Shown here one piece after another: positions 13,716 through 14,758 of a DNA stretch of 64,000 nt. The translations under genes were made by a program, and so were the position numbers. A model generated the notes under the pieces. It saw only the letters and a program-made list of their open reading frames with translations. It was not told the origin of the DNA and did not search any database. This stretch comes from an uncultured Brachyspira sp. (GTDB lineage Bacteria; Spirochaetota; Brachyspiria; Brachyspirales; Brachyspiraceae): the NCBI RefSeq assembly GCF_944388875.1, contig NZ_CALXKQ010000001.1:248001-312000 (forward strand). Direction: 5' to 3'. Position 1 is the stretch's first letter. The number at the start of each line of letters is the position of its first letter.

Positions 13716-13744
13716 TTGAATTATTTATTTTAATATAGTATAAT
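13716..13744 (+). promoter_or_regulatory. strong promoter ahead of the AGCCA repeat and FkbM gene
   Basis: TTGAAT at 13716-13721 and a perfect TATAAT at 13739-13744 are separated by 17 bases. Transcription would start near 13751, at the ATG of a short leader ORF, and would carry the pentanucleotide repeat in the transcript. Confidence 0.65.
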
Positions 13745-13750
13745 CCGCCA

Positions 13751-13870
13751 ATGGATATTAATAAGATGAATAATACTTTGGGCTTAATCAAGCCAAGCCA
13801 AGCCAAGCCAAGCCAAGCCAAGCCAAGCCAAGCCAAGCCAAGCCAAGCCAAGCCAAGCCAAGCCAACTAA
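13751..13870 (+). CDS. leader ORF containing the pentanucleotide repeat
   Basis: A 39-codon ORF starts with ATG at the predicted transcription start (MDINKMNNTLGLIK), runs through the AGCCA repeat as repeating PSQAK, and stops at TAA (13868-13870) directly after the repeat. There is no Shine-Dalgarno before this ATG; ATG at 13766 is an alternative. Changing the repeat count changes the reading frame leaving the repeat. One of the three frames stays open to 13982, across the FkbM ATG at 13964; the present count gives a frame that stops at once. Whether it is translated is unknown. Confidence 0.3.
   Translation: MDINKMNNTLGLIKPSQAKPSQAKPSQAKPSQAKPSQAN
13789..13866 (+). repeat. pentanucleotide tandem repeat (AGCCA), 15.6 copies
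   Basis: A perfect period-5 tract of 78 bases with 15 full AGCCA units from 13791 to 13865 and no interruptions. It is GC-rich against its AT-rich setting. Such uninterrupted short tandem repeats change length by slipped-strand mispairing and often mark phase-variable genes. It lies in the predicted transcript leader, about 100 bases before the FkbM start codon. Confidence 0.95.
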
Positions 13871-13963
13871 TATAATAATCTTTATTTTAAAAAATTATAT
13901 AATTCTAATAATCTGTGTTAGGTATTTTTGTTTAGAAAAATTTGATACAATAGGAGATATAAA

Positions 13964-14758
13964 ATGGATAGAAAAACAATAGATATGATAGTATGGTGGA
14001 TACCTTTTAGACGATTAAGAGATGTTGTAAGATGTACTTTAAATGATATACATTCTATTCTAAATGAAACAATAGATACAAAAAATAAAATAAATAAGAT
14101 ATTATCAAAAGAGAATATAATATACCCTTGCAAATTATCTGATATAGATTTTTATTTTTATGATTCTATGATATCTTGTACTACAGATGTAGTAAAAAAA
14201 GAAATAGGTCCATATAATTTTGATTCAATAGATTTCAAAGAAGGTGATATAGTGATAGATATCGGAGCCAATATTGGCATGGTATCTATATATTTAGCTA
14301 AAAAATATCCTTTTTTAAAAATATATGCTTTTGAACCCGTAAAACAAAATTATGAAAATTTATTAAAAAATATAGAAATAAATAATATACCTAAATATAC
14401 AATTACAGCTGAAAATGTTGCAATAACTAAGGATAGAAGAGATATTGATATAATAATTCCATTATATAATACAGCTGCAAGTAGTTTCGTAATAGAACGC
14501 GGTACAACAGCATTAACTTCAAATATTGATATACATGTACAATCAATCACATTTGATGATATATTTAAAAAATATAATATAAATAAATGCAAATTATTAA
14601 AAATTGACTGTGAAGGTGCTGAATATGAAATATTATACAATGCTAGTAAGGAAAATCTAAAAAAATGTGAGAATATGAGAAGAGAATTTCATGGATGTAT
14701 AGATGAACAAAAACAATTATATGAGTATTGTTCTAAGTATATAAAAAACATAGAATAA
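13964..14758 (+). CDS. FkbM family SAM-dependent methyltransferase
   Basis: A 264-residue methyltransferase of the FkbM type, which usually O-methylates sugars or polyketide-like acceptors. The SAM-binding motif I is VIDIGANIGMVSIYLAKKYP at about 101-120, followed by IYAFEPVKQNYENL, and the later family motif LLKIDCEGAEYEILYNAS at about 208-225. A good Shine-Dalgarno (AGGAG) stands 8 bases before ATG. It is a single gene behind the promoter and AGCCA tract, with repeats upstream and a gene relic downstream, so it may be an acquired surface-glycan modifier. The acceptor is unknown; surface glycan is an inference from the family and the repeat. Confidence 0.85.
   Translation: MDRKTIDMIVWWIPFRRLRDVVRCTLNDIHSILNETIDTKNKINKILSKENIIYPCKLSDIDFYFYDSMISCTTDVVKKEIGPYNFDSIDFKEGDIVIDIGANIGMVSIYLAKKYPFLKIYAFEPVKQNYENLLKNIEINNIPKYTITAENVAITKDRRDIDIIIPLYNTAASSFVIERGTTALTSNIDIHVQSITFDDIFKKYNINKCKLLKIDCEGAEYEILYNASKENLKKCENMRREFHGCIDEQKQLYEYCSKYIKNIE

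Follow-up and report, generated by a model that had tools for sequence, protein, structure and literature searches.

A pentanucleotide array in the leader of a Brachyspira methyltransferase gene as a candidate phase-variable attenuator

In our study, an FkbM-family methyltransferase gene of an uncultured Brachyspira sp. was found to be preceded by a short leader ORF carrying an array of AGCCA units. With a probability of about two in three, this array would act as a phase-variable, translation-controlled attenuator, in which the reading frame at its end decides whether the ribosome crosses a terminator to the gene. The arrangement of the parts, the frame calculations and the constraints seen in comparison were taken from sequence, in a window of 64,000 nucleotides (the whole stretch analysed; contig NZ_CALXKQ010000001.1, positions 248,001 to 312,000) and in related loci. 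The complete arrangement was found again at other loci throughout the genus, a point absent from the initial annotation of this DNA, and is not a one-off.

The leader, the array and the frames in the window

All features described here lie on the forward strand of the window. A sigma-70-like promoter was found at 13716–13744, with the -35 element TTGAAT (13716–13721), a 17-nt spacer and the -10 element TATAAT (13739–13744), matching the consensus at 10 of 12 positions. Shuffles of this AT-rich stretch gave 2.7 ± 1.9 promoter-like matches by chance, and a single match alone is insufficient; what makes the promoter credible is that almost every AGCCA locus has this element, equally spaced from its leader ATG. 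The initial annotation had called this promoter strong; the element is present, but its strength is not demonstrable from one site, and with this exception every figure of that annotation was correct. The leader ORF (13751–13870) begins with a near-leaderless ATG, 6 nt past the -10 element, and reads MDINKMNNTLGLIKP(SQAKP)n. At the present array length it is translated into 39 amino acids (MDINKMNNTLGLIKPSQAKP...SQAN*) with the stop at 13868–13870, the predicted OFF state.

The array, (AGCCA)x15.6, occupies 13789–13866 (78 bp, period 5, 100% match, TRF score 156) and is by far the top-scoring tandem repeat of the whole window. It is free of stops in all frames, encodes SQAKP repeats and has a unit length not divisible by three. 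TRF and translation agree with the earlier statement that the ATG frame enters 15.6 uninterrupted units. Downstream of the array the three frames were found to stop at +4 (13868–13870), +9 (13873–13875) and +116 (13980–13982), which confirms that two frames close within about 10 bases; the single open (ON) frame, 13867–13982, runs 19 nt into the FkbM gene (start at 13964), the same end and overlap as first described. Recomputation with other array lengths gave an exit at +116 for 83 bp (one unit more) and 68 bp (two units fewer), and an exit at +4 or +9 for 73, 78 and 88 bp, again as had been claimed. The assembled copy, with its 15.6 units, is predicted to be OFF and to turn ON at one unit more or two fewer, with the reservation that the genome is a short-contig assembly (3.11 Mb, 48 contigs), in which the array length may be an assembly choice.

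The gene behind the array (13964–14758, 264 aa) matched PF05050 (E 2.2e-16, 60.9 bits, cut-off 22.7) and TIGR01444 (E 7.5e-33, 114 bits, cut-off 37.7), and contained its own Shine-Dalgarno sequence, AGGAG, at 13952–13956. Its N-terminal module, IVWWIPFRRLR, is common to many array-controlled Brachyspira genes, and the enzyme probably takes part in surface glycan modification. As many as 26 genes in a single Brachyspira genome were seen to carry a module of about 35 amino acids, DxKTIDxIVWWIPFKKLRxxxRE. It is N-terminal in many glyco-enzymes and C-terminal in others, and possibly has a role in membrane or complex targeting. An in-frame fusion of the leader with FkbM was ruled out, as a TGA lies about 20 nt upstream of the ATG in the same frame as the gene; one lipoprotein locus (L074) is the exception, where the open frame continues into the gene.

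Recurrence, constraint and length variation

Some 70 arrays of this kind, built from 23 different units of 4, 5 or 7 bases, were found across Brachyspira in front of glycosyl- and methyltransferase genes and lipoprotein genes; they were gathered through gene searches, so that the total is a lower bound and favours the WWIPFK and lipoprotein families. AGCCA arrays were present in 13 of 25 genomes of the genus, against one of 16 genomes from elsewhere in the phylum, where the array had three units only. The 30 arrays inspected shared a single layout in a single orientation, that is promoter, ATG, short leader, array, spacer and gene. The leader ATG lies 5–10 nt past the -10 element in nearly all AGCCA loci and the spacer between array and gene measures 61–202 nt; for several non-AGCCA units, the promoter-ATG arrangement was not recognised. 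The genes behind AGCCA arrays encode proteins of the FkbM/glycosyltransferase type, in many cases with the module IVWWIPFKKLR at the N-terminus, or members of a lipoprotein family, and other WWIPFK genes were found to have the same upstream layout with different repeat units. The periods of the leader arrays were 4, 5 and 7, never 3, 6, 9 or any multiple of three, and the one 6-base A/T run seen lay outside any leader. On the sense strand all 23 units of the genus are free of stops in every frame, whereas nine would carry stops on the antisense strand.

The genome of the window contains at least five such array loci. One is a sister FkbM locus on another contig (C14), with an array of the same 78 bp behind a leader 5 nt longer; from these lengths it is predicted to be ON, and the window copy OFF. 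The lipoprotein family, SCKKxNILSPTHIPPPTDF, comprises proteins of about 570–640 aa that often lie behind an AGCCA leader array (e.g., L065 1749–3485); it had no Pfam or NCBIfam match, and the open frame in the spacers of its loci encodes a conserved peptide, SKKICLILFKI. In a pattern scan, AGCCA arrays of at least five units were also seen singly in unrelated genera, such as Nostoc, Vibrio, Pseudomonas and others.

The comparative tests point to translation of the array. At 26 of 27 AGCCA loci the leader frame ran into the array without a stop, against 10.3 expected from dinucleotide shuffles; among distinct AGCCA leaders it was open in 15/15 (P 1.2e-7), with the +1 and +2 frames open in 2/15 each. 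In 11 of the 13 sequence clusters, against 4.0 expected (P 3e-8), one frame stayed open until 25 nt or less from the gene start. A four-base overlap between the stop of the ON frame and the gene start (ATGA or GTGA) was found behind 9 of the 27 AGCCA arrays, where 2.0 were expected, and by cluster in 4/13 (P 0.004). All statistics given here rest on shuffles, and in these tests the clusters were defined by eye and treated as independent.

Differences in array length were seen at sister loci and not at the window locus itself, for which genomes were compared at one per species. B. hyodysenteriae ATCC 27164 (L068) contained four tandem copies of a glyco-gene, each with its own AGCCA array and nearly identical flanks; the arrays measured 69, 59, 54 and 53 bp, with the predicted states ON, OFF, ON and ON. 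With the open leaders, the spacer frames and these paralogue phases, the frame selection by repeat number proposed in the initial annotation is well supported comparatively. In plasmids of roughly 32–36 kb from nine B. hyodysenteriae strains (L307–L315), arrays at the same locus varied by whole units. An AACAG array in the tail of an acetyltransferase gene, found in six of the nine, contained 12, 9, 7, 13, 11 and 7 units with exits at +58, +58, +11, +11, +6 and +11, respectively, and precedes a terminator (dG -27) at +45 to +80. Sugar-pathway genes of these plasmids were observed to end in pentamer arrays (e.g., L307 29557–29616), some of which precede a strong terminator, and the differences in unit number between strains are relevant to strain typing. 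No close relative of the FkbM gene was found on the plasmids.

Putative terminators in the spacers and the competing explanations

A weak terminator-like hairpin with a T-rich tail, absent from the initial annotation, was found in the window at 13904–13931. The hairpin (13904–13922; UCUAAUA/UGUUAGG, seven pairs including two G-U, dG about -2.9) is followed by TATTTTTGT, with the T-rich tail at 13923–13931, and spans +38 to +56 after the array, so that the stops at +4 and +9 precede it and the one at +116 lies past it. Taken alone, it was indistinguishable from shuffles. It aligns with a stronger hairpin and T-run in three related loci, with 96% of cells paired; the counterpart in B. alvinipulli and another species is CCTAACAATCAATGTTAGG with a T-run. 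No two-sided (compensatory) change was found in the four-sequence alignment of this family, which is hence uninformative on this point, and the locus had no Rfam match up to E = 1.

Among 62 non-lipoprotein spacers, 39 contained a hairpin with a dG of at most -5 directly before a T-rich tail. Many of the non-lipoprotein spacer hairpins had -15 to -25 kcal/mol, unmatched in 40 shuffles, and many are textbook terminators (AGCCAGAGCATAAATTTATGCTCTGGCTTTTTTT). At 37 of the 39 strong-hairpin loci (20.8 expected), and in 25 of 27 hairpin clusters (P 2e-4), the hairpin is within reach of one or two frames, and the closed frames mostly end 20–86 nt ahead of it. No frame was found to reach the hairpin at the remaining two loci, L230 (AACAC) and L265. 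Two hairpin families, each of few sequences, keep their stems through two-sided compensatory changes.

In one class, an upstream gene that ends in ..AWWIPVKKWRDNF.. has an array of ACCAG units as its 3' tail. The open frame of this class ends in the 3' arm of the hairpin, 3–4 nt before the hairpin end and in most cases 40–110 nt short of the next gene. So far from the next start, a coupling of stop and start has no means to act, and antitermination, which has been proven for the same layout in Streptococcus gallolyticus (PMC3894217), is the better account. Chains of glyco-genes in which the 3' tail of a gene is an ACCAG array were observed at four loci (L290, L297, L298 and L282), with a strong terminator after the array in the first three and none found in L282; this suggests a daisy-chained control of read-through.

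In the proposed mechanism, the array would be a slipped-strand phase switch inside the leader ORF. Judging from the -10 spacing, transcription would start at the leader ATG or within a few bases of it. Ribosomes would translate the leader and the stop-free array and would leave in a frame that is given by the repeat number modulo 3. In the two closed frames the ribosome would halt 4 or 9 nt past the array, about 30 nt before the hairpin and T-run; the hairpin would then be free to form, and transcription would end before FkbM or the gene would be poorly reached. In the third frame the ribosome would pass the hairpin and end at the FkbM start, so that transcription would continue, and the translation of FkbM may be coupled as well.

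Coupling had been the effect on FkbM foreseen in the initial annotation. Its frame model holds, with the 19-nt overlap, but given the terminators in the spacers, coupling is probably secondary or shared with antitermination. As the whole mechanism, without a terminator, it would have the leader ribosome end over the FkbM start and re-initiate or open the ribosome-binding site. The excess of ATGA/GTGA overlaps among the AGCCA arrays, the overlap at the window locus and the lipoprotein class agree with such coupling, whereas the textbook terminators in the spacers of most glyco-loci, the ACCAG frames that end within the hairpin arm and the good Shine-Dalgarno of FkbM itself speak against it, and we consider it unlikely as the sole explanation. 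In the nine loci of the lipoprotein class no terminator was found, though the leader, array and open frame are the same; antitermination is therefore not the whole mechanism there, and this class must use coupling, Rho or something else. Coupling may add to antitermination, and it may predominate where the stop overlaps the start (ATGA) or where no terminator is visible. The common denominator of the terminator-bearing and lipoprotein classes is whether or not the ribosome is carried to the gene start.

Rho-dependent polarity, in which Rho instead of the hairpin would end transcription in the closed frames and the open frame would shield the RNA, is improbable. Both rho and nusG are encoded in the genome, and this explanation would also cover the lipoprotein class, but it leaves the strong intrinsic terminators with compensatory changes in the spacers unexplained, and the untranslated leader in closed frames, about 90 nt in the window and up to 190 nt elsewhere, is short for Rho at the window locus. 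An action of the repeat that does not involve translation, through the length of an untranslated leader, the stability of the transcript or a protein that recognises AGCCA in RNA, would fit the constant orientation of the arrays and an array RNA that should be unstructured; it is highly improbable, as the 23 kinds of unit differ widely yet keep the layout, the leaders are open, the openness of the spacers is frame-specific and the promoter spacing is fixed. A change in promoter spacing by repeat length was ruled out, since the array lies downstream of the promoter. A passive microsatellite without a regulatory role is equally hard to credit, with some 70 recurrent loci always before the same gene classes, constrained leaders and spacers, and stop-free units.

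Comparison with known systems

In the contingency loci of Haemophilus and Neisseria, slipped-strand changes in non-triplet repeats toggle surface-glycan genes. The repeat there usually lies in the target's own ORF or promoter, whereas in Brachyspira it lies in a separate leader and the gene stays intact. In the attenuation of the E. coli pyrBI and trp operons, the position of the ribosome on the leader decides whether the terminator forms. The Brachyspira loci would resemble these operons in that ribosome position on the leader governs the terminator, and would differ in that the input is a heritable repeat number, without metabolic sensing.

The phase-variable attenuator of pil1 (and pil3) in S. 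gallolyticus UCN34 was described by Danne et al., 2014 (PMC3894217), where trp attenuation is also discussed. A GCAGA array of 22 units lies in a leader-peptide ORF, and variants differ by whole units; the short leader stops 39–49 nt before an intrinsic terminator, long leaders reach the terminator, and mutants of the ATG, terminator and stop back the model experimentally (PMC3894217). The Brachyspira glyco-loci share with pil1 a pentanucleotide array in a leader ORF, mostly also a frame set against an intrinsic-terminator-like hairpin, weak at the window locus, and probable surface genes downstream. The phyla differ, and there is no sign of homology. The pil1 leader has its own ribosome-binding site, whereas the Brachyspira ATG lies about 6 nt past the -10 element without a Shine-Dalgarno; two of three frames are ON in pil1, whereas Brachyspira often has one open frame, often reaching the gene start. 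Brachyspira also differs in its diverse units, its dozens of loci and a class in which a complete upstream gene ends in the array.

Simple-repeat phase variation was not found in the Brachyspira literature searched. Brachyspira colonises pigs, birds and people. It is quite conceivable, and about equally open to doubt, that the genus carries a bank of independently switching, translation-gated attenuators with near-leaderless leader ORFs, several per genome (at least five in that of the window), one class of which chains switches along a gene cluster through 3'-tail arrays, and that together they encode surface glycans combinatorially, in a way that no multi-locus system described so far does. 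If so, a single Brachyspira clone would consist of cells with many different surface types, with consequences for serotyping and vaccines and for mismatches between glycan gene content and phenotype. The single case of repeat-driven attenuation in S. gallolyticus would then become a general regulatory design, having arisen independently and on a large scale.
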